DNA of 64,000 nt from Leucobacter sp. cx-42. GTDB lineage: Bacteria > Actinomycetota > Actinomycetes > Actinomycetales > Microbacteriaceae. Under the pieces are notes generated by a model. That model had not been told where the DNA came from and searched no databases. It worked only from the letters and a program-made list of their open reading frames with translations. Position 1 is the stretch's first letter. Each line of letters begins with the position of its first letter. The stretch lies in contig NZ_JACVMU010000001.1 of NCBI RefSeq assembly GCF_014529985.1, positions 62,001 through 126,000 of the forward strand, read 5' to 3'. Positions 36,291-52,818 of the stretch are shown one piece after another. The position numbers and the translations under genes are program-made.

Positions 36291-37112
36291 GTGAACGCTT
36301 GGGGGCAACCGTCACTCGGTCAGACCGCGGCTTCGCTCGACACTGATGCTCAGTCGTCGAGCGTCGCCGCGGTGACGCAGAGCATCTCATCGGCGATCTC
36401 GATGGGCATGCTCAGCGTGGGTGAACGGCTGCCGCCCGAGATTGACCTTGCGCATCAGTTCGGGATCGCAGTGGCGACTCTGCGGAAGGCGCTCGCCCAG
36501 CTTCGTGAGCAGGGCGTCGTTGAAACGCGTCGTGGGCGCAGTGGTGGCACGTTCATTGTGCAGACCCCGTTCCCCAAGCCAGAGGAGCTGTGCGCGTCGC
36601 TTGAACGCACGAGCGTGATCGCGCTCCGCGACTTCTTTGATGAGCACGCAGCGATCTCCGGGATGGCCGCTCGTCTCGCTGCGGAGCGCACCCAGCTCGG
36701 ACAGCGCACGCGCCTCGCGGAGTTCGCCTTCCAGGCCCGCGATGCCCGCACCATGCGTGACCGCGCGATGGCTGACAGCCGCTTCCACTTTGAAATCGCG
36801 GTGCTGAGCCAGTCGGCACGGCTCCTTGCCGCTGAGCAGCGACTCCAGTCTGAGCTTTCCCCGTTCCTGTGGTGCGACGAGGTCTGCAGTGCTTCAACGC
36901 ACCTCGCATTCACTGAACATCTCGCGATGGTGATGGCGATCGAGCAGCAGGATGCCGAGACCGCAGAGCGTCTCGCGGTCGAGCACGTGCACGGCAACAT
37001 GCACCTCATCATCACTGGCAAGTTGGCCCTCAACCGCAAACAGCTTGATGGCAGCGATGCAGCTCGCCAAGCGACTGGGGCTGTCCGATCTGGCACGAAG
37101 GGGAAGCAATGA
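36291..37112 (+). CDS. GntR family regulator, FadR-like
   Basis: This 273-residue regulator has an N-terminal GntR winged helix (MLSVGERLPPEIDLAHQFGIAVATLRKALAQLREQGVVETRRGRSGGTFI) and a C-terminal all-helical FCD/FadR effector domain (residues ~105-245). The start is uncertain: GTG at 36291 gives a normal-length leader before the DNA-binding domain, though the Shine-Dalgarno is weak. It follows kgd by 7 bp, so it may be partly co-transcribed with it. Its stop overlaps the start of the Cache-domain gene (ATGA). The leftward P450/glutamine-synthetase operon ends 48 bp beyond that pair, so this is the likely regulator of the amine cluster. Confidence 0.88.
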   Translation: MNAWGQPSLGQTAASLDTDAQSSSVAAVTQSISSAISMGMLSVGERLPPEIDLAHQFGIAVATLRKALAQLREQGVVETRRGRSGGTFIVQTPFPKPEELCASLERTSVIALRDFFDEHAAISGMAARLAAERTQLGQRTRLAEFAFQARDARTMRDRAMADSRFHFEIAVLSQSARLLAAEQRLQSELSPFLWCDEVCSASTHLAFTEHLAMVMAIEQQDAETAERLAVEHVHGNMHLIITGKLALNRKQLDGSDAARQATGAVRSGTKGKQ

Positions 37113-37816
37113 CCGCTTCGCTCCGCACCCAAGGAACCGTCGAGGCGGTCAACGCCTGGTTCACCGAGCGATTCTCACGCCTGGCTGACCTCTCCGATCG
37201 GTTTCTCGCAAAGATTGACCTGAATTCCGGTGGCCTGATCGATGTCACGGCAAGCATGCAGCGTCAGCTTCGCTTGATCGCTGAACAGTATCTTGAAGAC
37301 AACGCATCGGTAGACGGCTGCGGACTCATCTTCTCGCGGACAGCAATGGGCACCGAGAACGGCCACATCGAGTGGTGGGTCCGTGAAGACGAGCAACGGT
37401 TCGCTCGCTACTCGTTTGGCGTCGTGCCCGGCGGTGACCGCTACTACGATTACGAACACCACGAGTGGTTCATTCGCGCGTTCCACGAGGATGTCCCGGT
37501 GTTTGTCGGGCCGTACCTCGACTACCTCGGCGTCGAAGCATACGTGACCACGCTGACTCTGCCCGCGACGCTCAACGGTACTCGCATCGGCGTCGTCGGC
37601 AACGATATTCAGCTCGCAGACCTCGAAAAGAGCCTGCTGCCGCTGCTGCTCGGATGCCCCACTGACGCGATTCTTATTGGCACACACAACAACGTGCTCA
37701 TCAGCAATTCGGCGAATTACCTGCCCGGCGCGCAGGTCCCCAACGATCTTGCTGGGTTCCGCCGGGTGTCGGTAGAACCGCTGAGTATCGGGCTTGAACT
37801 GCTGCTTGCCGAGTAG
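37109..37816 (+). CDS. Stand-alone cytoplasmic Cache (PDC) sensor-domain protein
   Basis: This 235-residue protein appears to consist of a single PDC/Cache ligand-binding domain. The segment YYDYEHHEWFIRAFHEDVPVFVGPYLDYLGVEAYVTTLTLPATLNGTRIGVVGNDIQLADLEK, at roughly 112-175, has the usual order: aromatic ligand-pocket box, Tyr-x-Asp, threonine strand, then GVVGNDI. There is no signal peptide, membrane helix or output domain, although Cache domains normally sit outside the membrane on receptors. It is translationally coupled to the GntR gene by a 4-bp overlap. I infer that it supplies ligand sensing to the GntR protein or binds a cytoplasmic amine or amino acid. Confidence 0.82.
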   Translation: MTASLRTQGTVEAVNAWFTERFSRLADLSDRFLAKIDLNSGGLIDVTASMQRQLRLIAEQYLEDNASVDGCGLIFSRTAMGTENGHIEWWVREDEQRFARYSFGVVPGGDRYYDYEHHEWFIRAFHEDVPVFVGPYLDYLGVEAYVTTLTLPATLNGTRIGVVGNDIQLADLEKSLLPLLLGCPTDAILIGTHNNVLISNSANYLPGAQVPNDLAGFRRVSVEPLSIGLELLLAE

Positions 37817-37863: not shown

Positions 37864-38586
37864 CTAGCGTGCCTGGGTGATGACCGCTGCGAAGCGATCC
37901 GCAATTGGCAGCCACGCCGCTCCGAGCCGAGGCTCGGCGTCCGTGACCGCTGCAATAATCTGGCGCGGATCGAGCCCCAACTCATCGAGGCTTTCGGGAT
38001 CCTCGTCGACCCAGTCACTTGCGGTCGGGCCAAGCGCTTCTGGGTGGAACTGCACGCCCCATGCCGCCGATCCAACGCGGAATGCTTGGTTCGCACACGC
38101 GTCGCTTGAGGCCAGGACCTCGGTGTTCAGCGGCAGGGTGTCAGCTTCGAGCCAGTGCCACTGCACGACCGGAAGCGATGCGCTTGCGATACCTCCGAAT
38201 ACGGGATCCGCGCTCGCAGACTCAGCGAATTCCACCTTGCACAGACCAACTTCTGGGCCGGCAGGCATCGTTCGGACATGACCGCCGGCCGCCGTCGCAA
38301 GCAGTTGCGCACCGAGGCAGATGCCGAGCATCGGGATCTCACCGTCGATTGCTTCGGTGATGAGCCCGCGAGTGGCTGGAAGCCAGGGCGCCCGTTCATC
38401 CTCTGTTGGCCCCATTGCGCCGCCGAGCACGATGAGTGCGTCGAATCCGTCCAGTGAGTCAGGCACGGACTCGCCGGTGTCTGGCCCAACCGTGACAAGG
38501 TCGAGGCCGTTTGCGCGCAAACGCGGCGCGAGCTGGCCAAGGCCAGCGTTCTTCTGGTGCTCAACAACGAGTACGCGTGCGGTCAT
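37864..38586 (-). CDS. Class I glutamine amidotransferase-like protein
   Basis: This 240-residue protein has the class I amidotransferase fold with nucleophile Cys90 in MLGICLGAQLLATAAGG and the catalytic His-Glu in GVQFHPE. The sequence QWHWLEADTLP is typical of the GuaA-related stand-alone GATase1 group. No synthetase partner is fused, so it may hydrolyse a gamma-glutamyl compound rather than supply ammonia. It is the last gene of the leftward P450-GS operon and overlaps the PuuD-like gene by 4 bp. Confidence 0.85.
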   Translation of the reverse strand: MTARVLVVEHQKNAGLGQLAPRLRANGLDLVTVGPDTGESVPDSLDGFDALIVLGGAMGPTEDERAPWLPATRGLITEAIDGEIPMLGICLGAQLLATAAGGHVRTMPAGPEVGLCKVEFAESASADPVFGGIASASLPVVQWHWLEADTLPLNTEVLASSDACANQAFRVGSAAWGVQFHPEALGPTASDWVDEDPESLDELGLDPRQIIAAVTDAEPRLGAAWLPIADRFAAVITQAR

Positions 38587-39311
38587 CGTCCCTGTTCCTC
38601 TCGGTAGCGCTGTGCGCTGGTGACGAGCCAGTCAAAGAGTGCTTGCTGACGCCCGTCTTCAGCGGCGGTGTCTTCAGGATGCCACTGCATTGCCAAAACT
38701 GGTGCAGCCACATGCTCAAATGCTTCAACTACGCCGTCGGGCGCGCGACCGACCACGCGGAGATCGGCACCGATCCGCCCAATCGCTTGATGGTGATACG
38801 ACGACACCGGCAGCTGCGTCGATGCGAGCACGGCTGCCATGCGTGAGTCGGGTTCGAGCGTGACGTCGTGTACCGAATTGCGATGCACGCTGTCGGGTGC
38901 GACATCTTGGACCAGGCTGCCGCCCTGCTCGACGTTGAGGAGCTGGAATCCGCGGCAGATCGCAAGCACGGGAAGCCCCATCTCGATCGCTGCGGCGAGG
39001 AGCCCGGCTTCGAACTCGTCTTGCTCAGCAAAGTCAGCGGTGAGCGTGGCGTCACCTGCTGCCTCGCCATAGCGGGCAGGTGCGACGTCGGCTCCGCCAG
39101 GCACGAGCAGCGCGTCGAGCCCGAGGAGGCGCTCAGCTGGTTCGAGACTGCTGAGCGCAAACAGCGTGTGCGGCTCGCCGCCGGCGCGGATCACTGATTT
39201 CAGTACCGCGCCGGCGACGGCGCTGCCGTCGAATCGGAGCCCGTGCACCTGGTTAGACCACATGCCCGTTACGCCGATTCGCGGCACCGCCTGCGCCTTC
39301 GTGTGCTGCAT
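38583..39311 (-). CDS. Gamma-glutamyl-gamma-aminobutyrate hydrolase-like (PuuD/peptidase C26)
   Basis: This 242-residue protein matches the peptidase C26 group of class I amidotransferase-fold hydrolases. It has the PGGADVAPARYGE loop, the nucleophile Cys119 in LAICRGFQLLNVEQGG, and His-Glu in MQWHPED. PuuD cleaves gamma-Glu-GABA to glutamate and GABA. The start at 39311 is 3 bp after the previous gene's stop and has GGAG at 6 bp, so an upstream ATG inside that gene is rejected. In operon with a glutamine-synthetase-like ligase it would remove the gamma-glutamyl group that the ligase added. Confidence 0.87.
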   Translation of the reverse strand: MQHTKAQAVPRIGVTGMWSNQVHGLRFDGSAVAGAVLKSVIRAGGEPHTLFALSSLEPAERLLGLDALLVPGGADVAPARYGEAAGDATLTADFAEQDEFEAGLLAAAIEMGLPVLAICRGFQLLNVEQGGSLVQDVAPDSVHRNSVHDVTLEPDSRMAAVLASTQLPVSSYHHQAIGRIGADLRVVGRAPDGVVEAFEHVAAPVLAMQWHPEDTAAEDGRQQALFDWLVTSAQRYREEQGR

Positions 39312-39313
39312 TT

Positions 39314-40042
39314 TTACTCCGCGTTCTTCAGTGGGAAGGGCAGCAACGGCATCCACTTCTTCCAGACGGCTTCGAGCGAGCCATCTGCGATGACCGACTC
39401 GATCGCCGCGTTGATCTCGGCTCGTAGCTCATCGTTGCCCGGTGCGACGCCGATGCCCCACCGGTTCCCCGTGAGCACGGTGAATGCCTCAACGAAGTCA
39501 GGATCTTCCTGCCCGAGCGGAATCATCACCACATCGTCATCAACGAAGCCGTCGACCTCGCCCGACCGGGTCGCCTCGATCATGTCTTTGAAGACATCGT
39601 CGCTCGCGCCAAAGTGCACCAGCTCGACACCGGGGAAGGTCTCGGCGAGCTTCATGTTCGTCGATCCGGTGATCGCGCCGATCCTGTAGCCGGCGAGATC
39701 ATCGGCCGAGCGTGCCGGGTCATCGGCTCGCACGATCAACGTCTCATTGAATACAGCGTACGGATGGGTGAAATCAACGAGTGCTGCGCGCTCTGGCGTC
39801 ATACCCTGACCGCACCAGACCGCGTCGGCGCCGCCGGCGCGCACGGTCGGGATCATGTCGTCCCACGGGACCATCACCCACTCGACACTTGCCGCGCCGC
39901 CCGCGAGCCGCGACATGACCAGCGCGGCAGCCTCCGGCTCGTATCCCCCACGGGTCTTCCCGTCCTGGCTTTTCGAGAACAGGGGCAGCGCCTCTGAGTC
40001 GATGCATGCCAGCTTGATGATTCGTTCGTTGTTGGTGCTCAC
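39314..40042 (-). CDS. Orphan solute-binding protein (SBP family 3) without signal peptide
   Basis: This 242-residue protein has the bilobal amino-acid-binding fold of SBP_bac_3: KLACIDSEALPLFSKSQDGKTRGGYEPEAAALV, then MTPERAALVDFTHPYAVFNETLIVRADD and the YRIGAITGSTNMKLAE segment. It starts MSTNNERIIKL with no signal peptide or lipobox, and no ABC permease or ATPase is nearby. A cytoplasmic location is therefore likely. It begins with GTG overlapping the stop of the glutamine-synthetase-like gene (GTGA). Possible roles are a soluble ligand sensor or buffer, or an enzyme evolved from this fold (arogenate/cyclohexadienyl dehydratases are of this type), but I see no basis for choosing. Confidence 0.82.
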   Translation of the reverse strand: MSTNNERIIKLACIDSEALPLFSKSQDGKTRGGYEPEAAALVMSRLAGGAASVEWVMVPWDDMIPTVRAGGADAVWCGQGMTPERAALVDFTHPYAVFNETLIVRADDPARSADDLAGYRIGAITGSTNMKLAETFPGVELVHFGASDDVFKDMIEATRSGEVDGFVDDDVVMIPLGQEDPDFVEAFTVLTGNRWGIGVAPGNDELRAEINAAIESVIADGSLEAVWKKWMPLLPFPLKNAE

Positions 40043-41475
40043 GGAATTGCCTCCCAGTACTGATCAAATTCCCACTGTGTAATGACTCCGCAATAGCGGG
40101 CCCATTCGTCACGCTTGAGCTGCACAAAGATACGTGTCAGCTCTTCTGGCATTGCGTTCATGAGGTACTCATCTGCCTCGAACGCCTCGATCGCCATGCC
40201 GAGCGTGTTCGGCACGAGGCCACCGTTGGCCTCGTCGCTGAGCTGGCCTGGTTCGCCTGGATCGATCCGCGACTCCAGACCGTGCTCAATTGCGGCCAGC
40301 AAGTACAGGTGCGAGAGATACGGGTTCACGCTCGCGTCTGGCAGGCGGTATTCCATACGGCCGTTGGCAGAAATGCGGATCGCAACGCCACGGGTATCGA
40401 GGCCCCAATCGGCTCCCGACGGCGCGAACTGGCCAGCGTCCCAGAAACGCTTGTACGAGTTCACAGTCGATGCCATCACCAGCATCGAACCGGGGGTGTG
40501 CCGAAGCATGCCGCCCATCGCGTGCCGCGCAAGCTCCGTCGCGTGCAGTTCGACGCGACCGTCCTCAACGACGTTTTCTGCTGGGCCGTCGCCGTCGACC
40601 TTCCACAGGCTGAGGTTGTGGTGGCAGCCATTACCCATTTTGCCGTTGTACGGCTTCGCCATGAAGCTTGCCTGAAGCCCGAGCTCACGCGCCGTCTGCT
40701 TGCAGATCTGACGGTAGGTGGTCATACGCTCTGCCGTGAGGTCGGCACGATCGTAATCCCAGTTGAGCTCAATCTGTCCGTCGTCTTCATAGTCACCCTG
40801 GATCATCGTGAAGTCGAGGGCCTTGCCGTAGCCGTACACCTTCTTGAAGACCGGGCGCATCCTCTCAAGGTTTTCGACCTGGTACGCGGGGCTCTGGTCT
40901 TCCTTCGAGACTGGTTCAATCCCGGGACCGATCCAGGTCATTTCTGGCTCGAGACCCGAACGAAGCTCCAGGCCGGTGCGCTCGGTGAAGCCACGCATCG
41001 CTGCTTTGAGGAGCGCACGAGTATCGAGCGCTACGAGCCGGCCACCGCCCTCGCCAAGATGGGGCGGATCGTACGCGGTACAGAAGATACGAGCGACCTC
41101 AGTATCCCAGGGCAGCACCTGGAAGGTCTCTGGCTCGGGAAGTCCCCAGAACTCGTGTGCGTCGACGCCACCACCGATGAGCTCGCCCTCGCGGCTCGTC
41201 TGCAGGTCAGTCAGGGCCGTGCGGTGAAACGCGATGCCCTTCTTCAACATGCGCTCATAGAGTTCTGCTGGCACGACCTTTGCGACCGTGCGCGCCCCCA
41301 GCGTCGGGAGCATGTAGTAAATGTACTTCACCCCGGTTTCGCGGATCTTGTCACTGAGTGCCTGCACGACCTCGGGTCGCAGGTTTGCGGCTTGATGTCG
41401 CGCGAACGCTGTGTCATCCGCGAGAATTTCACGCATGGCAGCGCCGAAGCTGCCACCCGTTTTCAGATCAGACAT
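40039..41475 (-). CDS. Glutamine synthetase-like gamma-glutamyl ligase (GlnA/PuuA family)
   Basis: This 478-residue ATP-dependent ligase belongs to the glutamine synthetase family. Recognisable elements are the ELRSGLEPEMTW strand with metal-binding Glu, the GQIELNWDYDRADLTAERMTTYRQICKQTA segment, the catalytic-pocket ASFMAKPYNGKMGNGCHHNLSLW, and the C-terminal RISANGRMEYRLPDASVNPYL region. The usual GSGxH reads GNGCHH. No typical adenylylation Tyr region is evident. Housekeeping GlnA would not be in this context, so ligation of glutamate to an amine is more likely, as in PuuA or ethanolamine/aromatic amine ligases. AAAGGGA precedes ATG at 41475, 46 bp after the P450 stop. Confidence 0.87.
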   Translation of the reverse strand: MSDLKTGGSFGAAMREILADDTAFARHQAANLRPEVVQALSDKIRETGVKYIYYMLPTLGARTVAKVVPAELYERMLKKGIAFHRTALTDLQTSREGELIGGGVDAHEFWGLPEPETFQVLPWDTEVARIFCTAYDPPHLGEGGGRLVALDTRALLKAAMRGFTERTGLELRSGLEPEMTWIGPGIEPVSKEDQSPAYQVENLERMRPVFKKVYGYGKALDFTMIQGDYEDDGQIELNWDYDRADLTAERMTTYRQICKQTARELGLQASFMAKPYNGKMGNGCHHNLSLWKVDGDGPAENVVEDGRVELHATELARHAMGGMLRHTPGSMLVMASTVNSYKRFWDAGQFAPSGADWGLDTRGVAIRISANGRMEYRLPDASVNPYLSHLYLLAAIEHGLESRIDPGEPGQLSDEANGGLVPNTLGMAIEAFEADEYLMNAMPEELTRIFVQLKRDEWARYCGVITQWEFDQYWEAIP

Positions 41476-41521
41476 GAGGTCCCTTTCGTCTTTGGAAGGT
41501 TCGTAATGCCGTGTCGCGTCG

Positions 41522-42742
41522 TTAGCGTACGGAGAATGTGATGGGGAGTTTGACCGGTCCGTGGTTTCCCGAGTCGGGGAGCCACTCATCGCCACCGGGG
41601 CAGGTGATATCGGTGAAGGCCTGGGCGAGCAGCGGGAGCGCAACGCTCATGTCCGCGCGCGCAATGTAATGACCGAGGCAGTGATGCACGCCGCCGCCGA
41701 AGGTGTGATGCTGCTTCCGGTCCGTCGCGTTGAGATCAATGTCAGGGTCCGGGTAGGCCTCGGGGTCGGTGCCACTCGACATCGTGAAGAGATGCACCGT
41801 GGTGCCGTTTGCGATCTGCAGCCCCTTGAACTCAAAGTCTTCGTTTGCCTCGCGTGTCACCCACCGAGTTGTGGGGTTCACACGCAGTCCTTCTTCGAGC
41901 GCAGGCTTTGCGTACTTCGCGGGATCCGCTGCGAGCAACTCCCACTGCTCGGGGTTGCGCATGAACGTCTGCAAGAGCAGACCGATCTGGTTACGGGTGG
42001 TGTCCATGCCACCGAACAGCATGAGCACGAGTGCATTCCGCAACTCTTCGGTCGTGAGCTTGTCGTCTGCCTGAGAGAACTGCACCAGGCGCGAGACGAC
42101 ATCTTCACCCGGGTGTGCCCGGCGCTCCTCGATGAGTTCATCAACGAAGTCGTAGAGTTCCTTCACTGCCTCATCAATCGCTTCGATGTCTTCCTTGATG
42201 GAGACACTCAGCGCGTAACCGACCGTGTTCGCGCGAGATGCAATGAACTTCCAATGCTTGTGATCGAGCCCCATCATTGCGCAGAGCGCACGGGTCGCAA
42301 ACGGCTCAGAGAACGCCGCGACGAAGTCAACCTCTTCCCCTGCCGCGTGCAGCGCCTTCATCTCCGCAATGAGCTCATTTGCAATGTCAGCAAACTCTGG
42401 CTCAAGTCGACGTGCAACCGCTGGCGAGAATGCGGGGTTCAGGAGTCGGCGAATGCGGTGGTGCTCGTCTCCCTCAAGCACGAGCAGGTTTTTCGCCCAC
42501 CACTCGTAGAAGATGCCGGTGTGCACCCCGTGGTGCTCCGGCCATTTTGCGCTGCCCTGGTTCAGGCTCGGGTGCTTCAGCAGCTCGGTGACTTCCTTGT
42601 ACCGCAGAATGCCGTACCCGTAGTTGGTCTTTGCGTACCAACTACGTTCACGCGCATCTCGGACCTCTTCAGAGTTCATCGCAAATGCGGGTGAAGCGAT
42701 GTCCAAATACGGCACGTCTGTGTGGGTATCCTGGCCAGTCAT
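41522..42742 (-). CDS. Cytochrome P450 monooxygenase
   Basis: This 406-residue soluble bacterial P450 has the I-helix motif GGMDTT (residues 244-249) with the acid-alcohol pair Asp247-Thr248, the K-helix E284-G-L-R287, and the heme loop FGGGVHHCLG with ligand Cys355. The N-terminal EWWAKNLLVLEGDEHHRIRRLLNPAFSP segment contains the C-helix. AAGGAG lies 6 bp before ATG at 42742. It leads an operon with a glutamine-synthetase-like ligase and gamma-glutamyl hydrolases, and is divergent from an FprA-type reductase and flavodoxin. The link to a GS-like gene recalls the mycobacterial secondary-amine P450 (CYP151, piperidine/morpholine); the substrate is inferred, not proved. Confidence 0.93.
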   Translation of the reverse strand: MTGQDTHTDVPYLDIASPAFAMNSEEVRDARERSWYAKTNYGYGILRYKEVTELLKHPSLNQGSAKWPEHHGVHTGIFYEWWAKNLLVLEGDEHHRIRRLLNPAFSPAVARRLEPEFADIANELIAEMKALHAAGEEVDFVAAFSEPFATRALCAMMGLDHKHWKFIASRANTVGYALSVSIKEDIEAIDEAVKELYDFVDELIEERRAHPGEDVVSRLVQFSQADDKLTTEELRNALVLMLFGGMDTTRNQIGLLLQTFMRNPEQWELLAADPAKYAKPALEEGLRVNPTTRWVTREANEDFEFKGLQIANGTTVHLFTMSSGTDPEAYPDPDIDLNATDRKQHHTFGGGVHHCLGHYIARADMSVALPLLAQAFTDITCPGGDEWLPDSGNHGPVKLPITFSVR

Positions 42743-42816
42743 TCGTACTCCTTTGTCGAATAAATCGTGCTTCGGCCGCCGTCGCGTCATTGCGGCCGGT
42801 CAGCAATAAGCTATCC

Positions 42817-42899
42817 ATGAATGTTTTAGATTGCAAGTAAATTCAACGAAACTTTTGCCCAATGGGAAATTCAGTTAATAAAACATTCATCGAATGAAT
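42817..42899. promoter_or_regulatory. Inverted repeats in the P450/reductase divergent promoter region
   Basis: ATGAATGTTTTA (42817-42828) and its exact reverse complement TAAAACATTCAT (42879-42890) lie 50 bp apart in the 213-bp gap. ATTCATCGAATGAAT (42885-42899) adds an overlapping palindrome. A likely -10, TACACT at 42909-42914, has TTCATC at -35 spacing (42886-42891), so the right-hand site would overlap the -35 of the reductase gene. This fits a shared operator for both directions. Confidence 0.65.
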
Positions 42900-42955
42900 C
42901 TTTATGGGTACACTAGTGCCATTGCACGCGAACCACTCAAGCAAAGGAGCTAGAG

Positions 42956-44218
42956 ATGTCGTCACCTGCGAACCTGCACATCGCGATCATTGGGGCAGGC
43001 CCCTCCGGCTGCTACCTTGCCCAGGCGCTCTCGCGCGGTCTGCCAGAAAGCACCATCACCATCTTTGATCGTTTGGCCTCGCCATTCGGCCTCATTCGCT
43101 ACGGCGTCGCCGCAGACCATCAGCACACCAAAGCCATCACGCGCCAGTTCGAACGACTCTTCGCCAGTGGCGCCGCGCGCTTTGCCGGCGACATCGAGGT
43201 CGGCAGAGATCTCTCGCTCGCAGACCTGCAGGCGAACTTCGATGCGGTCGTCTTGGCTTCTGGCCTGACGATTGACCGCCAACTGGATATTCCAGGCGCC
43301 GAACTGCCTGGCGTGCTCGGCGCAGGCGAGATCACGCGCGCCTTGAATTCGCACCCGGCATCGGCAGCGCTCCGACCAGATTTTGGGACGGAGGTCGTCA
43401 TCATTGGAGCGGGAAATGTTGCCCTCGATATTCTGCGCTTTCTGGTCAAGGATGCTGCAGGCTACGACGCGAGCGATGTCAACGACGCCTATCTCAACGC
43501 CTACCTGTCTGCTCCCGCGCAGCGTGTGACACTCGCGAGCAGATCGCGCACCGCAGAGTCCAAGGGCGATCCGCAGATGATCAAGGAGCTGGCCACACTC
43601 CCCCGCGCGCACTATTCGTCGACGACGGCGACCGCGGCTGCCCCCGATGCCGACCGCACAGCGACTGCCCGATCCGCCGCTTTTGCCGACCTGTTCTCCC
43701 CCGATCGCGCGCCGGCGCCTGGCCCCGAGGTGCACGTGCTCTTCGGTGCGACCCCCACACGCATCCTTGGCGCGGATCACGTGACCGGTGTCGAGTTTGC
43801 GCTCGGCAGCGAGACCACAGTGGTCCCGGCAACATCGGTCATCACCGCGGTCGGGTTTGCGCCTGATGCCGATGACGCATTGAGCGCGCTCACGGCAACG
43901 CCGGCGGCGAGCGGCCGCCTGGCGGCCGGCCTGTACCGTACGGGCTGGGCGAAGCGTGGCCCGAACGGCGCGATTCCAGAAAATCGCGCCTGCGCAAAGA
44001 GTGTCGCTGACGAAATGCTCGCCGATATTGAGAGCGGCGCACTCGCCCCAGCCGGGAAGACCGGATTCGCTGGGCTGCCAGACACGGTACGCGAACGCGC
44101 CGTCAGTTACGACGACTGGCTTCGCTTGGATGCGCACGAACGCAACACTGCGCTCGCGAATCGCGTACGCAACAAGCTTCCCGATCACACGTACATGGTC
44201 AAGATTGCCCGCGGGTAA
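42956..44218 (+). CDS. FprA-like NADPH-ferredoxin/flavodoxin reductase (adrenodoxin reductase type)
   Basis: This 420-residue FAD enzyme has the adrenodoxin reductase/FprA layout. The N-terminal FAD-binding IIGAGPSGCYLAQAL is followed by PFGLIRYGVAADHQHTKAI, specific to this family. The NADP-binding domain has VVIIGAGNVALDILRFL and TLASRSR, and a second FAD contact lies in GWAKRGPNGAIPENR. AAAGGAG precedes the ATG. It is divergent from the P450 and is followed after 40 bp by a flavodoxin, which implies that it passes NADPH electrons to the flavodoxin and then to the P450. Confidence 0.92.
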   Translation: MSSPANLHIAIIGAGPSGCYLAQALSRGLPESTITIFDRLASPFGLIRYGVAADHQHTKAITRQFERLFASGAARFAGDIEVGRDLSLADLQANFDAVVLASGLTIDRQLDIPGAELPGVLGAGEITRALNSHPASAALRPDFGTEVVIIGAGNVALDILRFLVKDAAGYDASDVNDAYLNAYLSAPAQRVTLASRSRTAESKGDPQMIKELATLPRAHYSSTTATAAAPDADRTATARSAAFADLFSPDRAPAPGPEVHVLFGATPTRILGADHVTGVEFALGSETTVVPATSVITAVGFAPDADDALSALTATPAASGRLAAGLYRTGWAKRGPNGAIPENRACAKSVADEMLADIESGALAPAGKTGFAGLPDTVRERAVSYDDWLRLDAHERNTALANRVRNKLPDHTYMVKIARG

Positions 44219-44258
44219 TTCAGACACTTCACGCCTCCTCGAAAGGAACCAACCAGTC

Positions 44259-44726
44259 ATGAAATTCACTGTTCTTTACGGCACTGAGTCCGGAAACTCA
44301 GAACTCATTGCAGAAGATCTCGGCGAGCATCTGCGCGACTCCAACGACGATGTTGCGGTCCACGATCTCCAGAACTTCGACCCAGCGGACCTCACACCAG
44401 ACCGGTTTACCATCGTGATCTGCTCCACACACGGCGAGGGTGACCTGCCCAACACCGCGATTCCTTTTGTTGAAGCGTTCGACCAGGTACTGCCAGACCT
44501 CACCGGGCTCCAGTACGCGATGTTTGGTCTCGGCGACACCTTCTACGAGGAGACCTACAGTCAGGGCAGCGAGCACATTGACCGCCGCTTCACCGCTCAG
44601 GGTGCCACGCGCGTCGGCGAATACGGACGTCATGACGCATCATCGTGGGACATGGGAAGTGACGTGGCAATCGCCTGGATTCCCAGCGTGCTTGAAGCGC
44701 TCGCGGAACTCCGAGCTGCAGCGTAA
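44259..44726 (+). CDS. Flavodoxin-like FMN protein, probable P450 electron donor
   Basis: This 155-residue soluble protein is a flavodoxin of the MioC/CPR-FMN-domain type. The phosphate loop YGTESGNSE near residue 7, the STHGEGDLPNT loop near residue 53, and the FGLGDTFYEETYSQGS isoalloxazine loop near residue 86 are all present. It lacks Cys clusters for iron-sulfur centres. GAAAGGA precedes the ATG. The gene order P450 - FprA-like reductase - flavodoxin resembles the cindoxin system of P450cin (CYP176A), one of few P450s known to use a dedicated flavodoxin. Most actinobacterial P450s use ferredoxin. Confidence 0.93.
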   Translation: MKFTVLYGTESGNSELIAEDLGEHLRDSNDDVAVHDLQNFDPADLTPDRFTIVICSTHGEGDLPNTAIPFVEAFDQVLPDLTGLQYAMFGLGDTFYEETYSQGSEHIDRRFTAQGATRVGEYGRHDASSWDMGSDVAIAWIPSVLEALAELRAAA

Positions 44727-44809: not shown

Positions 44810-45787
44810 TCACACCATACGAGTGATGAACTCCGCTGCGCGAGCAAGCTGCTCTTCACCGGCCTGGATCTTGCCAGCCGAGGTGAAGATGCCATGTGCA
44901 TTGCCAGGCAAGTGCGTCAGCTCAACGTGCGTACCCGCGGTCGCAAGGAGCTGCGTGTACTCAAGCGCCTCATCCGCGAGCGGATCGAGTCCGAGCGTGA
45001 TGATCCACGCCGGCGGCTGCGCCTGCGCACCGGGTTCTCGCGCTGCGAGCAGCGGCGAGACACGGTGGTCTGCGCGATCCGCGTCTGCCGTTGCCGGATC
45101 AAGGAACTCCTGAGCGAACCAACGCATCGTGTCTGCCGTGAGCGGGAAGCCCTCGGTGATACGTGCGTACCCAGCAGACTCAGCTGACAGATCAAGCACC
45201 GGGTACAACAGCACCTGAGCCGCGATCGTCGTGCCTTCGACCTGCATCGAGGGCTCAAACGCAAGTGCGGTCGCGATGCCGCCGCCGGCGCTGTCACCGC
45301 AGGTGACGATCCGCTGTGCATCCCAGCCACGCTCGGCAGCAGCATCACGAATCCACGCAACTGCGAGCGCAGAGTCAATGTGTGCCGCGGGGAACGGGAA
45401 TTCTGGGCCGAGGCGGTAATCAATCGCAACAACGGGCAGACCGGTCAGCGTCGCCAGGCGTCGGCACGCAGAATCATGCGTCTCAAGCGAGCCGATGACC
45501 CAGCCACCACCGTGCGCGAATACGATCACGCCGTCAGCGGCGTTACGTTCGGGGCGCGGATCGTAGACCCGGACCTTGAACGCCTCGTCGCCCGCACCAA
45601 CCGTCACATCTTCGACGTGCGCGATGGGGTCGGGAGCAAGACCGTTGGCCTTGCTCGAGACCTCATAGTTCTGGCGCGAGATCGCCATCGTTTCCGCGTC
45701 CTGGAACGACTTGCCCCCGGATGCGCGGAAGGCCGCGACCAGCTCTCGCTGGTCCGCGGCCACCACGTTGATCGGAACGATCGTCAT
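44810..45787 (-). CDS. Alpha/beta hydrolase, hormone-sensitive lipase-type esterase
   Basis: This 325-residue esterase of the HSL family (family IV) has the oxyanion-hole HGGG at residues 92-95 and the nucleophile motif GDSAGGG with Ser166. The Asp and His of the triad are expected in the ITLGLDPLADEALEY and LPGNAHGI segments near the C-terminus. Its ATG overlaps the stop of the Baeyer-Villiger gene (TAATG). In that operon it would hydrolyse the ester or lactone produced by the monooxygenase. Confidence 0.92.
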   Translation of the reverse strand: MTIVPINVVAADQRELVAAFRASGGKSFQDAETMAISRQNYEVSSKANGLAPDPIAHVEDVTVGAGDEAFKVRVYDPRPERNAADGVIVFAHGGGWVIGSLETHDSACRRLATLTGLPVVAIDYRLGPEFPFPAAHIDSALAVAWIRDAAAERGWDAQRIVTCGDSAGGGIATALAFEPSMQVEGTTIAAQVLLYPVLDLSAESAGYARITEGFPLTADTMRWFAQEFLDPATADADRADHRVSPLLAAREPGAQAQPPAWIITLGLDPLADEALEYTQLLATAGTHVELTHLPGNAHGIFTSAGKIQAGEEQLARAAEFITRMV

Positions 45788-47271: not shown

Positions 47272-47318
47272 GATTATTTCCTTTGAGGTACTACGTGATG
47301 AAGAGAAGAATTGAAAAG

Positions 47319-48458
47319 TTATGCGGTGGCTGCCGGCATGCGAATGATCTGTCGCAGCACGTTGCCTGAAGCGAGAGCGTCCATGCCCTCGTTCATTTCG
47401 TCGAGTTCGATGGTGCCGCTAATGAGGCGCTCAAGCGGCAGGTCGCCTGCACGCCAGAGCTCTTCGAACTTGGGAATGTCGCGGCTAGGAACGGCCGAAC
47501 CGAGGTAGCAGCCGATGACAGACTGTGCGCGAGCGGTGAGCTTCAACGGCTCGATCTCACTCATTGCGCCGGGAGCCGGGAGGCCTACGGTCACGAGGGT
47601 GCCGCCGAAGCCGATCATCTTGTACGCGGTCTCGAATGCGCGGGGGTGACCTACGGCTTCGATCACCACATCGGCGATGATGCCAGCTTCTGCTGCCTGC
47701 TGCGGGGTGTACGCCTCGTCGGCGCCCCACTCCTTTGCGAGTTCGAGCTTCTGCTCGTTCGCATCAACAGCGATGACCTTGTTCGGCTTCACCGCAAGCG
47801 CAGTAAGCAGCGCGGCCATGCCCACGCCGCCGAGACCGACGATCGCGATCGACTGGTTCGAAGTAAGCTTCGCCGCGTTCAGTACTGCGCCGCCACCGGT
47901 GAGCACTGCGCAACCAAGTACCGCTGCGATATCTGCGGGAACATCGCTGCCGACCGGAACGATCGAGCGGCGGTCGACAACCGCGTACTCTGCGAAGCCC
48001 GAGCAACCAAGGTGGTGCTTCACGCTCTCACCGTCGCGGGTGAGATGCTCGCTGCCGCTAAGGAGCGTGCCGACCTCGTTGGTCTTCGACCCTGCCGAGC
48101 ACGGCAGGCGACCATCGGTCAAGCACTCTGCGCACTCGCCACAGCGGGGAAGGAAGGTGAGTACCACGCGCTGGCCGAGTTCGAGGTCGGTGACGCCGTC
48201 ACCAATCTCTTCGACGATGCCTGCTGCTTCGTGGCCGAGGAGCATCGGAACGGGACGCGGACGCGACCCGTTTACGACCGAAAGATCTGAGTGGCAGATG
48301 CTCGCTGCTTCGATGCGAACGAGAACCTCTCCTGCTGCGGGGCCAGAGAGTTCAACCGCATCGATGGTGATGGGACGGCTCCTGCTGTACGGAGCCTCTG
48401 CGCCCAACTGGTTCAACACTGCGCCACGGATGGTGCGCGTCGTCGTTGTGCCGCTCAT
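47319..48458 (-). CDS. Zinc-type alcohol dehydrogenase (MDR superfamily)
   Basis: This 379-residue NAD-dependent dehydrogenase belongs to the class III/benzyl alcohol dehydrogenase branch. The catalytic-zinc motif is ICHSDLSVVNG with LGHEAAGIVEEIG, and the structural-zinc Cys set lies in LPRCGECAECLTDGRLPC. The Rossmann motif IVGLGGVGMAALL is followed by the NAD-selecting VDAN. A strong AGGAGG precedes ATG at 48458, so an upstream ATG (adding 23 residues) is rejected. It is first in the operon with the Baeyer-Villiger enzyme and esterase and is divergent from a GAF/PucR regulator. Confidence 0.93.
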   Translation of the reverse strand: MSGTTTTRTIRGAVLNQLGAEAPYSRSRPITIDAVELSGPAAGEVLVRIEAASICHSDLSVVNGSRPRPVPMLLGHEAAGIVEEIGDGVTDLELGQRVVLTFLPRCGECAECLTDGRLPCSAGSKTNEVGTLLSGSEHLTRDGESVKHHLGCSGFAEYAVVDRRSIVPVGSDVPADIAAVLGCAVLTGGGAVLNAAKLTSNQSIAIVGLGGVGMAALLTALAVKPNKVIAVDANEQKLELAKEWGADEAYTPQQAAEAGIIADVVIEAVGHPRAFETAYKMIGFGGTLVTVGLPAPGAMSEIEPLKLTARAQSVIGCYLGSAVPSRDIPKFEELWRAGDLPLERLISGTIELDEMNEGMDALASGNVLRQIIRMPAATA

Positions 48459-48478
48459 CGTCGCCTCCTGATTGTTGA

Positions 48479-48499: not shown

Positions 48500-48590
48500 A
48501 GAACGACGACCGCGTCGCCGTTAACACTTACGAGAATGCCGCCCACTTTTCACAAACCATGTGTGCAACTATCTATTCTTTTTGATCGAA

Positions 48591-48606: not shown

Positions 48607-50372
48607 TGATCACCGCCGACACGCCACCCGCTGATTACGACTCGCTCATCGAATGGGCTCGGCGACAGCAGCGACTCACGAGCTCAATCTCTGAATTCGC
48701 TATCGCAATCACAGCGATTCGTGATGATTCGGCTGCATTGCAACAGCTCGTTGCCCGCACCCGTTCGCTTCTCGATGTCGATATGGCGTACATCAGCTTG
48801 AATGGCACCGACGGCAGCGGCTTCACACACATCGTGGAAACCGCGGGAGTGCGCACCGACGCATATCGCACACTCCGCATGCCACTCGGCGCCGGCGTGC
48901 TTGGTCGCGTTGCAGAGTCAGGCAGCCCGGCACAGACGAGCGATTACGCCACCGACACTGTCCTCACACACGACAGCGAAGTCGACCGGGTCGTCGAAGC
49001 TGAAGGCGTCAAAGCCATTCTTGGTGCGCCAATGAAGTCACGCGGCAAGGTCATCGGCGCACTTCTCGTCGCGAACCGATTCGCCAAAAAGTTCACTGAT
49101 GAGCAGGTCTTTATCGCGGAGACCCTGGCGAATATTGCCACCGTTGCGATCGACAACATGCATCGCGTCGATTCTCTCACCACCTCCCTCACCGAGCTTC
49201 GCGGCTCGGCATCCGAACGCGAACGCGAACTCGAAACGCAACGCAGAATCACGAGCGCGGACGAGTCACTCATGGACGCGATTGCCGGCGGTGGCGGCCT
49301 TGCCTCACTCCGCTCAGGCATGGAGCGTGCAATTGGCCGCGAGACACAACTGGTCGACATGACCGTCCGATTCGACATGCGCGAGGCCGCTGCAGAAATC
49401 GGTGACAGCGAACGCCCACTCTTTGCCCTTTCAGCCAAAACCGGTGACCCCATGAGCGTGATGCGCGAGGGCGGCACCGAACAGACCATCATGGCCGCGA
49501 CCCGACGAGGCGAACTCGTCGGCGCGGTCATGGTTGAGGGCGCCATCTCCGACAGCGATGAACTCGTGTTGCGTCGCTGTGCTCACGTGCTCGGTGTCTT
49601 CCTGAGCGCGCAGGATCGCGAACGCGGCGACCTCGCACGCCGCAGAAAAGAGCTCATTCAGCAGGTACTCTCGCCGCCACCCGGCGGTCTCGATGTGACC
49701 GTCGTGACGCAGCTCAGCGAGCTCGGCATCATGACGGGCCACCCGTACCGAATCCTCATCGCTGATGGCGCAGAGTCGTCGCTCCGAGACTTCCAGCACC
49801 GCCTGGAGCTCAACTTCGGCGTGACACTGTTACACGCACAAATCGGCGAGCAGATCGTTGCACTTGCGCCAGAGGCTGCGTTTGAACGAGTGCAGGCCGA
49901 GCTTGAGTCTCGCGGCGCTCGACACTGGGGCTCGATGCTCGTCGGGCACTCCCCCGCACTCCACATGTTCGAAGTCGTGCCAGACGAGTTTGCGCTACTC
50001 AATCGCGTGCTCGAAGCAGCACGCCGATCAAACCACCCGCGAACCCTTGTCTCGTTGCTCACGTTTGGGGCAATCGGCGCGTTCCTCTCCAAGGTCACGA
50101 TCGAGCCAACGCGATTGGCAATTCAAGACTTCATCGGGCCGGTCATCGAGTACGACCGTACCCACGGAACCGCGCTCGTGAACACGGCGACGGTATTCCT
50201 TGATTCCGGTCGATCAGTGTCAGAGACCGCGCGCACGATGCATGTGCACGAGAACACCGTGCGCCAGCGGATCGACCGCGTGGGCAGTCTCCTCGGCGAG
50301 GACTGGGCAGCAGGTCACCGCGTACTCGATTCGCACATCATGTTCGCGGCGAACCGACTCATCGGCGACTAA
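48606..50372 (+). CDS. GAF-domain transcriptional regulator with PucR-type C-terminal HTH
   Basis: This 588-residue regulator has a GAF domain (about residues 40-205; GAGVLGRVAESGSPAQTSDY and VKAILGAPMKSRGKVIGALLVANR are GAF-typical). A coiled-coil-like segment follows (about 205-245), then a central PucR-like region. The C-terminal PucR/CdaR helix-turn-helix is in RSVSETARTMHVHENTVRQRIDRV (about 545-570). It is divergent from the alcohol dehydrogenase-BVMO-esterase operon and is its probable regulator, sensing substrate through GAF. The start at 48606 is preferred since the longer frame has no ribosome binding site, but no good site is seen here either. Its stop overlaps the convergent hydrolase gene stop by 3 bp. 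Confidence 0.88.
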   Translation: MITADTPPADYDSLIEWARRQQRLTSSISEFAIAITAIRDDSAALQQLVARTRSLLDVDMAYISLNGTDGSGFTHIVETAGVRTDAYRTLRMPLGAGVLGRVAESGSPAQTSDYATDTVLTHDSEVDRVVEAEGVKAILGAPMKSRGKVIGALLVANRFAKKFTDEQVFIAETLANIATVAIDNMHRVDSLTTSLTELRGSASERERELETQRRITSADESLMDAIAGGGGLASLRSGMERAIGRETQLVDMTVRFDMREAAAEIGDSERPLFALSAKTGDPMSVMREGGTEQTIMAATRRGELVGAVMVEGAISDSDELVLRRCAHVLGVFLSAQDRERGDLARRRKELIQQVLSPPPGGLDVTVVTQLSELGIMTGHPYRILIADGAESSLRDFQHRLELNFGVTLLHAQIGEQIVALAPEAAFERVQAELESRGARHWGSMLVGHSPALHMFEVVPDEFALLNRVLEAARRSNHPRTLVSLLTFGAIGAFLSKVTIEPTRLAIQDFIGPVIEYDRTHGTALVNTATVFLDSGRSVSETARTMHVHENTVRQRIDRVGSLLGEDWAAGHRVLDSHIMFAANRLIGD

Positions 50373-51148
50373 CGCGCCTGCGCGACGAGTTCGGCAAAGA
50401 TGCGGTCGCGATCCGCCACATTGCCGCCAGGCTCTTCTGGGTGCCACTGCACCCCCACCATCCAGGAGGCCACGCGGTGCCTCGTCGCCTCAACAATGCC
50501 ATCGTGCGCGCGTGCCATGACAGCGAGCGCGGGCGCCACCTCTGCAACGGCCTGATGGTGACCGTTCCGGACGGTCAATCGGTCGCGGCCATAGATCTGC
50601 GCCAACACTGAATCTGGCTCCAGGATCACTTCTTCATCAATGAACAGCGGATTCCCATCGCCCTTATGGAGCTGCCACTCCGCGAGATCTGGGTACAGCG
50701 TGCCCCCGAAGGCGACGTTCATGAGTTGCGATCCCTTGCAGATCGCGAGCGTTGGAATGTCTCTGGAGGCGGCCTCCCGTAACAGATTGAGGCAGTATTC
50801 GTCACCACGACCATCAACCCCGTAGAGGTTGTCAGGCAGTGCTCCCGCGTAACCGTAGCAGCTGGGGTCGACGTCGGATCCGCCGAGGAACACCAGCGCA
50901 TCTGCCTGCTCGCACACCTCTGCGATTGGCTGCAGTTGCGCTCCTGTCGTATAGGTCACGAGTCGCGGACGACCGCCTGCGGCTCGTACCGCATCGAACG
51001 CAAGCGCGGTCGTGGCGGTCTGAATCTGCGCGGCAGCGGCATTCATGCCTGGAAATCCGAGCGACACAATCATGGCCACGACTGGGCCATCTGATTGCTC
51101 GCGATCCGGGTGATTGAACTGCGTAGGGTCGATGACGAGCTGATGCAT
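50369..51148 (-). CDS. Second PuuD-like gamma-glutamyl hydrolase (peptidase C26)
   Basis: This 259-residue class I amidotransferase-fold hydrolase has the LGGSDVDPSCYGYAGALPDNLYGVDGRGDEY segment, the nucleophile Cys137 in LAICKGSQLMNVAFGG, and His-Glu in VQWHPEE. It resembles gamma-glutamyl-GABA hydrolase but differs clearly from the PuuD-like protein at 38583-39311, so the two may act on different gamma-glutamyl amides. It lies downstream of an amine-type permease on the same strand, separated by a perfect hairpin. Confidence 0.87.
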   Translation of the reverse strand: MHQLVIDPTQFNHPDREQSDGPVVAMIVSLGFPGMNAAAAQIQTATTALAFDAVRAAGGRPRLVTYTTGAQLQPIAEVCEQADALVFLGGSDVDPSCYGYAGALPDNLYGVDGRGDEYCLNLLREAASRDIPTLAICKGSQLMNVAFGGTLYPDLAEWQLHKGDGNPLFIDEEVILEPDSVLAQIYGRDRLTVRNGHHQAVAEVAPALAVMARAHDGIVEATRHRVASWMVGVQWHPEEPGGNVADRDRIFAELVAQAR

Positions 51149-51228: not shown

Positions 51229-52731
51229 CTACGCGACGACCTTGATCGGACCGCTTGCGTCGCCGGCCGGTGCATCACCCTTGGTGTGCGCCTTCGAGGC
51301 GAGCATGTAGATCCAACCAAAGCCGATCACGCACACGGTGGTGATGATGAGGAGATAGTCCTCTGCCCAACCGCCGCCAGTCGGCCGCGGCCACAGGATG
51401 TTGGCAACGGCAGCGACACCCCAGATCAACGCGATGATGTTGACGATGTACGCCCAGGCGCCGAGACGGAACTTGCCAGCCGGTTTCCAGCCGAGAATGC
51501 GAGCTCTGAGCGCCGCAAACACCACCATCTGGAAACCGATGTAAATGCCGACCGTACCGAAGCTCACCATCGCAGTCAGCGCATCTTCAAGGAAGAGCGA
51601 GAGCACGAGAATAATCGCAGGGAACAGCGCTGCCATGAGCAGCGAGCGAGTAGGAACCGCACGCTTCTCGTTGAACTTCGACAGGAAGTTCGACGCCGGC
51701 AGGAAGTGGTCACGGCTCATCGAGTAAATGAGGCGGGTTGCCGCTGCCTGCAGACTCGTGAGGCACGAGATAAAAGCGATCACGATCACGAGCATCGCGA
51801 CCGGGTACACCGGACCGAAGGCTTCCTGCAACAGCACCGCGATCGGATCCGCCACCGTACCATCGGCTACGGCAAGGAAGTTCGGTACTGCCATGGTGAG
51901 CGAGAAGGTCAGCAAAATCGTTGCAAAGCCACCGATGTACAGCGTCACGCGCATTGCGCGGGGCACCACGTAGCTCGGGTTCTTGATTTCCTCTGCAACG
52001 TCACCGTTAGCCTCAAAGCCGTAGTACGCGTACATACCAATGAGCGCTGCCGCAGCGAACGCACCGAGGTAGCCGCCTGGCGCATCGAGACCGATGCCGA
52101 AGTTGTCGAAGAAGATCGAGAAGTCCCACTGGCGACCGAAGATGAGCAGGTACCCACCGATCACCAGGGCGCCGATCATTTCGGCGATCAGGCCGATGAG
52201 TGCCGCCCAGCTGAGCACCTTCGTGCCCGAGAAGTTCAGCAGCGTAGCGATGACGAGCGTACCGAGCGCGATGAGCACCATCGCCGGCGTCGTGGCTTCT
52301 GCACCAAACACAGCGCTCACGAATGGCGCAGCGCCGTACGAGACAGCGGCGATCGTGCCGACGAGTGCGACAACGTAGATCCAACCATTCATCCACGCCC
52401 ACTTGCGGCCCCAGAGCCTGCGCGACCAGGGGTACACGCCACCAGAGACCGGGTAGTTCGAGACGACTTCGCCGAACACAAGCGCCACGAAGAACTGTCC
52501 GATGAGGGCGATAACGACGGCCCACGCCATGGGCGGGCCAGCCGTGCCAAGCGAGATGGCAAACATCGAGTAGACGCCGGCGATCGGCGACAGGTACGTG
52601 AAGCCGAGCGAGACGTTGCCCCAGAAGGTCATGTCTCGCTTAAACTTCGCGTCGTACGAATAACCGAGTGACGCGAGATGCGCGGCGTCCTCGTCGTGGT
52701 GCTCCGTCACCACAGCGTTGTTCTCTGACAT
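51229..52731 (-). CDS. APC family amino-acid/amine permease
   Basis: This 500-residue permease has about 12 membrane helices. An acidic cytoplasmic N-terminus (MSENNAVVTEHHDEDAAHLASLGY) leads into MTFWGNVSLGFTYLSPIAGVYSMF, which places it in the GABA/choline/amine branch of the APC superfamily (Uga4/BAT1/EutP-like), distinct from the two other permeases here. The start at 52731 has GGGAG about 11 bp upstream; an ATG further upstream (52782) is possible. Beside cupin and agmatine-deiminase-like genes it probably imports an amine or amino acid for the cluster. Confidence 0.87.
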   Translation of the reverse strand: MSENNAVVTEHHDEDAAHLASLGYSYDAKFKRDMTFWGNVSLGFTYLSPIAGVYSMFAISLGTAGPPMAWAVVIALIGQFFVALVFGEVVSNYPVSGGVYPWSRRLWGRKWAWMNGWIYVVALVGTIAAVSYGAAPFVSAVFGAEATTPAMVLIALGTLVIATLLNFSGTKVLSWAALIGLIAEMIGALVIGGYLLIFGRQWDFSIFFDNFGIGLDAPGGYLGAFAAAALIGMYAYYGFEANGDVAEEIKNPSYVVPRAMRVTLYIGGFATILLTFSLTMAVPNFLAVADGTVADPIAVLLQEAFGPVYPVAMLVIVIAFISCLTSLQAAATRLIYSMSRDHFLPASNFLSKFNEKRAVPTRSLLMAALFPAIILVLSLFLEDALTAMVSFGTVGIYIGFQMVVFAALRARILGWKPAGKFRLGAWAYIVNIIALIWGVAAVANILWPRPTGGGWAEDYLLIITTVCVIGFGWIYMLASKAHTKGDAPAGDASGPIKVVA

Positions 52732-52802
52732 AGTCTTTGGTACTCCCTTGTACGGCTCGTCAGTTGAGCGCGATTCCGCCATTGGAATCACAGGTACAAC
52801 CT

Positions 52803-52818
52803 ACATCTAGATGTTTTG
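52803..52818. promoter_or_regulatory. Palindrome in the permease leader
   Basis: ACATCTAGATGT is a perfect 12-bp palindrome at 52803-52814, running into GATGTTTTG. The AT-rich ATGTTT core is shared with the P450/reductase gap and with 53404-53412. It lies 72 bp upstream of the permease start. Confidence 0.45.

Follow-up and report, generated by a model that had tools for sequence, protein, structure and literature searches.

The window, a stretch of 64,000 nucleotides from Leucobacter sp. cx-42, carries a cluster of eleven genes and associated operator-like sites in the following arrangement.

36291..37112, plus strand: GntR-family regulator with an FCD domain (Pfam GntR and FCD)
37109..37816, plus strand: cytosolic stand-alone Cache (PDC) protein, predicted amine sensor (Pfam MCP-like_PDC_1)
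37864..38586, minus strand: GATase1, a class I glutamine amidotransferase-fold hydrolase (Pfam GATase)
38583..39356, minus strand: Peptidase_C26 (PuuD-like), predicted gamma-glutamyl hydrolase (Pfam, 159 bits)
39314..40042, minus strand: signal-less family 3 solute-binding protein, predicted cytosolic (Pfam SBP_bac_3)
40039..41535, minus strand: glutamine-synthetase-like ligase, predicted gamma-glutamyl-amine synthetase (Pfam Gln-synt_C)
41522..42745 (to 42790 from an upstream alternative start), minus strand: CYP151-type cytochrome P450 (Pfam p450; tree)
42804..42826, minus strand: operator-like site B in the P450 promoter, AAACATTCATGGATAGCTTATTG (site model)
42881..42903, plus strand: operator-like palindrome A on the FprA side, AAACATTC-N7-GAATCTTT, 77 bases from site B
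42956..44218, plus strand: FprA-type (adrenodoxin-reductase-like, XplB-like) flavodoxin reductase, 41% identical to XplB
44259..44726, plus strand: cindoxin-like flavodoxin (Pfam Flavodoxin_1; best solved match cindoxin, 4oxx)
50369..51148, minus strand: second Peptidase_C26 hydrolase (Pfam, 160.6 bits)
51229..52791, minus strand: APC-family amine/amino-acid permease (Pfam AA_permease_2)
52794..52816, minus strand: operator-like site in the permease promoter, AAACATCTAGATGTAGGTTGTAC (site model and pattern search)

A profile and reading-frame check of 37864-44726, the interval given in the preliminary description, confirms the genes listed there at their positions, but these boundaries are too narrow, since the GntR-FCD/Cache pair (36291-37816), the permease (51229-52791) and the second C26 hydrolase (50369-51148) are also members of the cluster. 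The latter two are separated from the remaining genes by an ADH-BVMO-esterase island; in other Leucobacter, the second C26 hydrolase gene adjoins the flavodoxin gene. The ADH-BVMO-esterase-PucR genes (44810-50372) are rejected as part of the cluster, being found at that spot only in the window and in the near-identical cx-328. Adjacent minus-strand reading frames of the cluster overlap each other, and the start of the Cache gene overlaps the GntR stop. A search for the five-gene operon with flavodoxin, proposed in the preliminary description, finds the gene order again in 18 of the 37 genomes of the genus Leucobacter. The wider census covers 64 related P450 loci, each with at least 6.5 kb of flank on both sides; the ligase is present in 62 of them, the signal-less binding protein in 61, the Cache gene in 58, the GntR-FCD gene in 57 and the permease in 53. 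Since the order recurs in 18 of 37 genomes and the ligase and binding protein are this frequent, the arrangement is not due to chance.

The P450 has a conserved heme ligand (Cys356), ExxR motif and D248-T249 pair. For membership of CYP151 an identity of 40% or more to enzymes of that family was required, and the P450 is 51-53% identical to Mycolicibacterium P450s from pip/mor-type loci encoding P450, ferredoxin and ligase, and 48% identical to the pGKT2 P450, PipA and MorA themselves standing outside this comparison. The earlier proposal of a CYP151-type cluster in which the P450 lies beside a glutamine-synthetase-like gene and a GntR regulator therefore holds, as does the proposal that flavodoxin replaces ferredoxin. 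The electron donors are mutually exclusive: 25 of the 64 loci have flavodoxin and FprA, 37 have ferredoxin, and none has both, ferredoxin being absent from all 25 flavodoxin-type loci. The FprA and flavodoxin genes are divergent from the P450 operon. The cluster FprA falls in an XplB-type clade separate from housekeeping FprA (support 100/100), while the flavodoxin is a separate gene of 155 amino acids, 40% identical to the flavodoxin domain of XplA. Elsewhere in the same genome, FprA and flavodoxin are fused with a P450 as one chain. The Nocardiaceae flavodoxins retrieved in the search lie outside CYP151 clusters.

The ligase has gamma-glutamylmethylamide synthetases (9qur, 7cql) as its best solved relatives. 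It scores 174 bits against the GlnA model TIGR00653, far under the cut-off of 429, and 167.8 bits against the PuuA equivalog, whose cut-off is 650; the type III cut-off is likewise missed. Two stronger glutamine synthetase genes are located elsewhere in the genome. As previously suggested, the ligase thus appears distinct from the ammonia-assimilating GlnA, a conclusion supported by these sequence comparisons. For Gulosibacter, PMC9477822 suggests that such a protein simply assimilates ammonium freed from the amine, and describes its gene as co-expressed with the P450 on molinate. We give this reading very little credence here: besides the low GlnA score and the two stronger synthetases, the accompanying C26 gamma-glutamyl hydrolases would have no point.

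The first C26 hydrolase carries the motifs AICRGFQ and QWHPE, and its score against the PuuD equivalog model is 85.9 bits, under the cut-off of 266. A PuuD-style conservation run on the C26 proteins gave zero informative positions because paralogues were mixed in the set. In the GATase-fold hydrolase, C90, H181 and E183 are conserved. PuuB and PuuC, noted as missing in the preliminary description, are indeed absent from this cluster. No aldehyde dehydrogenase is encoded within it either, while many ferredoxin-type relatives have one within the cluster; the same genome does contain gabT with an aldehyde dehydrogenase gene next to it.

The binding protein had been described as having no counterpart; with 61 of 64 loci encoding it, it is a standard part of such clusters. 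None of its 91 copies has a signal peptide-like N-terminus, and in these copies its start abuts or overlaps the ligase stop. No ABC transporter genes lie within the cluster, so that both features of a periplasmic ABC binding protein, signal peptide and cognate transporter, are lacking. Its predicted fold is confident (pLDDT 93), the best matches being SocA, ArgBP and GlnBP. Most likely it binds a gamma-glutamyl intermediate inside the cell. Retention of an amino-acid-binding fold in a protein encoded directly after the ligase would also suit a different order of events, in which gamma-glutamylation of the amine comes first and the binding protein hands the resulting gamma-glutamyl amide to the P450 for N-dealkylation or hydroxylation. 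It also speaks for this order that the nearest ligase family, the gamma-glutamylmethylamide synthetases, uses free amine. We nevertheless consider it unlikely, as PipA/MorA-type enzymes are reported, in work cited in PMC9477822, to be active on the free heterocycle.

The regulatory genes also point to an amine. PMC10104139 independently describes an operon in actinobacteria whose two genes encode a transcription factor and an intracellular amine-binding dCache protein (a GntR and dCache_1AM pair). In a profile alignment with PctA, W120, Y136 and D166 of the Cache protein are equivalent to W128, Y144 and D173 of PctA, while R126, the carboxylate-binding Arg of amino-acid sensors, is replaced by H118. 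With the aromatic cage and Asp retained and R126 absent, the positions checked have the dCache_1AM pattern, and by its residues the protein would fit this published sensor family. The operator pattern has exactly two matches per genome, one at the P450 promoter and one at the permease promoter, in the six Leucobacter genomes searched (the window genome and five others), and no control matches occur in these genomes. Palindrome A occurs once in the window, where 0.09 matches would be expected, and is found at the same position in most Leucobacter. The GntR-FCD protein would act at the two operator-like sites of the P450 and permease promoters.

In Streptomyces, some members of the clade to which the P450 belongs lie with ectA/ectB/ectC-like genes in an ectoine-like biosynthetic cluster that has no ligase, so that the P450 by itself is insufficient to fix the substrate. 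The Leucobacter cluster might, on this precedent, be biosynthetic or act on an unrelated P450 substrate, the link to amines being secondary. This seems highly improbable, given that conservation extends to the permease, the amine-sensor/GntR pair, the hydrolases and the ligase, and that no other genes belong to the regulon. Amine degradation is strongly supported by the CYP151 type of the P450, the conserved ligase and binding protein, the shared operator and the Cache residues taken together, and the eleven-gene cluster very probably serves to break down a small secondary or cyclic amine by means of the P450 and gamma-glutamyl tagging.

It is probable that the cluster is an inducible catabolic regulon for such an amine, operating by the steps proposed here. 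The sequences themselves show the gene set, its conservation, the common operator pattern and the exchange of redox partners; the substrate, each chemical step and the order of steps, the pairing of repressor with operator and the ligand of the binding protein are what we infer. The permease would bring the amine into the cell, where its binding to the cytosolic Cache protein would lift GntR-FCD repression at the two operators. Electrons from NADPH would pass through FprA and flavodoxin to the P450, which would hydroxylate the carbon adjoining the nitrogen, and the carbinolamine would ring-open or dealkylate to an amino-aldehyde. The glutamine-synthetase-like enzyme would couple the amine so released to the glutamate gamma-carboxyl, a tag that would stop the amino-aldehyde from re-cyclising. 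The gamma-glutamyl amino-aldehyde would be oxidised by an aldehyde dehydrogenase encoded elsewhere in the genome, and the C26/GATase hydrolases would free the omega-amino acid and glutamate.

The cluster brings together four loose ends, which become testable in one genus that can be cultured although it is not a model: what the glutamine-synthetase gene adjoining CYP151 P450s does physiologically, what the GntR/intracellular amine-sensor pair of actinobacteria, so far an orphan, controls, what function a near-universal cytosolic solute-binding protein (61 of 64 loci) serves, and in which natural setting the redox partners, permease and neighbours of the RDX-degrading XplA/XplB system belong.

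Each related system shares a part of this cluster. P450cin and cindoxin likewise use a flavodoxin as P450 redox partner, although P450cin belongs to a different P450 family and no ligase is known from that system. The E. coli Puu putrescine pathway has the same logic of gamma-glutamyl ligase and PuuD-like hydrolase, while the cluster lacks PuuB and PuuC, scores under the PuuA and PuuD cut-offs and adds a P450.

The xpl locus for degradation of the explosive RDX on plasmid pGKT2 of Gordonia KTR9 shares an FCD regulator (40.5% identical), a Cache protein, a CYP151-like P450 (48%), a ligase (51%), XplB (41%) and the N-terminal flavodoxin domain of XplA (40%), and the permease of the cluster is 50% identical to that of the DN22 xpl locus. 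In pGKT2, however, the flavodoxin forms one chain with a second P450, the XplA heme domain, which has no counterpart in the cluster, and the ligase reading frame continues into XplB; neither a binding protein nor a C26 hydrolase was found near that locus. The best relatives of the XplA heme domain among 396 genomes are at most 36% identical, and the window P450 is rejected as one, with only 27% identity over 186 residues. In the first trees, XplB and the XplA flavodoxin fell just outside the cluster proteins; after three further FprA and flavodoxin pairs joined the trees, direct ancestry of XplB/XplA from the window FprA and flavodoxin was rejected, the nearest protein to the XplA flavodoxin being from Rhodococcus oxybenzonivorans (55%). 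The one claim retained from the trees is that, by sequence, the window FprA and XplB share a single XplB-type clade. We regard it as possible, though rather doubtful, that gamma-glutamyl-amine catabolism has in the binding protein a new cytosolic component (carrier, allosteric sensor or even an enzyme with a solute-binding fold) needed to handle the gamma-glutamyl intermediate, and that the regulon is the source context of the xpl regulators, permease, ligase and redox partners.

The flavodoxin version is not without precedent. PMC9477822 reports it, with transcript data, in the bioI and pipA P450 loci of Gulosibacter molinativorax ON4, which have P450, FprA-type reductase, electron-transfer protein (cinC among the validated genes) and glutamine-synthetase gene. 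Molinate, an azepane herbicide, strongly raises expression of a P450 and an FprA homologous to those of the cluster, while the gene set named pipA has no significant induction. The ON4 P450s are given as 53/52% identical to PipA/MorA, enzymes tied to piperidine/pyrrolidine and morpholine oxidation and found in loci of the P450-ferredoxin-ligase type. The authors read the ligase differently, as noted above, and the binding protein is not mentioned in the passages of PMC9477822 covered here. Gulosibacter relatives other than ON4 have the same gene set, with P450s 72-74% identical to that of the window. The Mycolicibacterium CYP151 pip/mor clusters hold GntR-FCD, Cache, P450, ligase, binding protein and C26 hydrolase in one neighbourhood, but in another gene order and with ferredoxin, with or without a ferredoxin reductase, in place of flavodoxin and FprA. 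The Leucobacter cluster is very probably a flavodoxin-powered version of this known mycobacterial pathway.

The preliminary description had placed a P450-led operon of overlapping frames, with divergent FprA and flavodoxin genes, at 37864-44726, and this layout is present there. Although the core genes stand, the boundary does not, since neighbourhood comparison adds a GntR-FCD regulator with a Cache protein, a second C26 hydrolase and a permease as conserved elements beyond it.

Features of the cluster in the window
36291-37816, GntR-FCD regulator and Cache-domain protein, tail to tail with the GATase gene (neighbourhood comparison)
37864-42745, minus strand, P450, glutamine-synthetase-like ligase, family 3 binding protein, Peptidase_C26 hydrolase and GATase1 protein, in overlapping frames
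42804, operator-like site in the P450 promoter (site model)
42956-44726, FprA-type reductase and flavodoxin, divergent from the P450 operon
50369-52791, second C26 hydrolase and APC permease, adjoining the flavodoxin in other Leucobacter (neighbourhood comparison)
52794, operator-like site immediately upstream of the permease frame (site model)

Among the 64 related loci whose flanks extend at least 6.5 kb in both directions, the ligase is found in 62, the binding protein and at least one C26/GATase protein in 61 each, the Cache protein in 58, the GntR regulator in 57 and the permease in 53. The P450 occurs at 76% identity or more in 18 of 37 Leucobacter genomes. In the window and in Leucobacter sp. 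cx-328, the flavodoxin is separated from the second C26 and permease genes by a group (44810-50372) encoding an alcohol dehydrogenase, a Baeyer-Villiger-type monooxygenase, an alpha/beta hydrolase (esterase) and a divergent GAF-PucR regulator. The group resembles an island for breaking down ketones or cyclic alcohols, and its insertion in the amine regulon is confined to this lineage. A small EutQ-like cupin gene (52966-53322), retained in several Leucobacter, lies upstream of the permease; cupins also flank the pGKT2 locus of Gordonia KTR9. An agmatine deiminase gene (53548-54579), a further polyamine-degradation gene, adjoins the cluster in most Leucobacter. Fragments of a second ligase, binding protein and C26 set lie upstream of the main cluster in Mycolicibacterium chlorophenolicum (L116:1201-2906).

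The closest named relative of the P450 is that of cx-328 (99% identity), followed by those of Gulosibacter and Zimmermannella faecalis (72-75%), Mycolicibacterium P450s that adjoin a ferredoxin and the same ligase (51-53%) and the Gordonia KTR9 plasmid P450 (48%). Two P450s of Gulosibacter molinativorax, 53 and 52% identical to M. smegmatis PipA and Mycobacterium HE5 MorA, are both adjoined by FprA-type reductase and ligase genes; on molinate, bioI and its reductase are strongly overexpressed while the pipA set is not, and hexamethyleneimine oxidation was proposed (Lopes et al. 2022, PMC9477822). That study therefore precedes the present one in reporting a flavodoxin form of the cluster. In a Streptomyces locus (L004:1824-11092), a P450 of the same clade and a ferredoxin sit within an ectA/ectB/ectC-like cluster that also encodes adenylation and carrier proteins; here the family is put to biosynthetic use.

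While the Mycolicibacterium loci have a ferredoxin beside the P450, the window has flavodoxin and FprA. The two arrangements are mutually exclusive across the related loci (flavodoxin with FprA in 25, ferredoxin in 37), and the trait changes four times on the P450 tree, or perhaps three; the flavodoxin call in tree row L005 is a false one, from a diflavin reductase. The window FprA belongs to an XplB-type clade split from housekeeping FprA with full support. FprA and flavodoxin as P450 electron donors are supported by a single 1040-codon frame in the same genome (L176:3115-6234; G000:C13 ~285600-288730), in which a P450 is fused to an XplB-like FprA reductase and a flavodoxin; such a self-sufficient layout is unusual. 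A second copy occurs in another Leucobacter (L177), and many Leucobacter genomes have P450 matches in frames 1000-1070 codons long. Outside CYP151 clusters, XplB-type reductase and flavodoxin form a mobile P450-type redox cassette, with pairs in Paracoccus, Nitratireductor (adjoining ehu genes) and Rhodococcus oxybenzonivorans (L198:5775-7465, L199:5754-7468 and L201:5655-7438).

The divergent P450/FprA promoter contains a 15-base inverted repeat, which comparison across Leucobacter separates into two sites with a spacing of about 77 bases. A site model was built on P450- and permease-promoter sites of several relatives, including the cx-328 P450 site, which is identical to that of the window, and leaving out the window's permease site; its only matches in the 64 kb are at 42804 and 52794. 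With one mismatch allowed, six complete or near-complete Leucobacter genomes each contain exactly two matches to the corresponding IUPAC pattern, located at the P450 and permease promoters wherever coordinates were checked; the reversed control pattern has no match in these six. Because both promoters carry the same pattern, the two operons very probably form one regulon, whose sites are presumably bound by the GntR-FCD protein.

The Cache family can be aligned with the amino-acid chemoreceptor PctA. The amine-contacting W128, Y144 and D173 of PctA have conserved equivalents in W120, Y136 and D166, while the carboxylate-binding R126 is replaced by H118 in the window protein and by Leu or Met in others. 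The same residue criteria define amine-binding dCache_1AM domains; in Actinobacteria, copies of these are reported that form intracellular proteins by themselves and share a two-gene operon with a transcription factor (Cerna-Vargas et al. 2023, PMC10104139). Judged by these residues, the GntR-FCD/Cache pair fits that description, giving independent support for an amine inducer, and clusters like the present one are a target on offer for such pairs.

The ligase had been predicted to be other than an ammonia-assimilating GlnA, and this holds: in profile searches it falls below the cut-offs of the GlnA, type III and PuuA models, and its nearest solved relatives are a glutamate-methylamine ligase (9qur) and a type III enzyme (7cql). 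Since the genome has two higher-scoring GS genes at other places, ammonium assimilation is independent of it. The start of the binding-protein gene commonly overlaps the ligase stop, and a signal-like N-terminus is absent from all 91 copies. The 41 columns invariant among 37 diverse copies include the Arg and Asp positions that we take to be the normal holders of the alpha-carboxylate and alpha-amino group in this family. The structure model is confident (pLDDT 93); its best matches, SocA and arginine- and glutamine-binding proteins, are tied within 1 Z unit. We infer that in the cytosol the protein takes a ligand with an amino-acid head, the simplest candidate being the gamma-glutamyl conjugate; this is the weakest link of the scheme below and also the most interesting.

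Amine degradation, as first suggested for the cluster, is well supported by the conserved gene set, the CYP151-type P450 and the amine-sensor residues. In the proposed pathway, the amine would be imported and sensed, alpha-hydroxylated by the P450 and opened or dealkylated; gamma-glutamylation and aldehyde dehydrogenase oxidation would follow, and hydrolysis would free the omega-amino acid. This scheme, all of its chemistry being proposed, would account for every conserved gene. Of the 37 ferredoxin-type loci, 23 have an aldehyde dehydrogenase gene no more than 9 kb away; of the 25 flavodoxin-type loci, 4 do. The genome also encodes a GABA aminotransferase, above cut-off and adjoining an aldehyde dehydrogenase, and this pair could take 4-aminobutyrate further. 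The novel elements are the conserved cytosolic binding protein and the defined regulon.

The xpl locus of pGKT2 (L003), with the order FCD regulator, Cache, P450, ligase, XplB and XplA, is a part-for-part counterpart of the window at 37-51% identity, the heme domain of XplA being the sole exception. Its ligase frame continues into XplB in a single uninterrupted frame (L003:13193-15751); annotation in the record covers the XplB portion alone, leaving the ligase half unannotated. The window permease and its counterpart in the xpl locus of Rhodococcus DN22 share 50% identity. The Leucobacter branch itself does not seem to be the source of these parts, since on the P450 tree the KTR9 protein groups with the ferredoxin clade, and a Rhodococcus flavodoxin is closer to that of XplA. 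Given the pGKT2 match and the DN22 permease, the xpl loci seem to be composites whose components came from this type of amine cluster.
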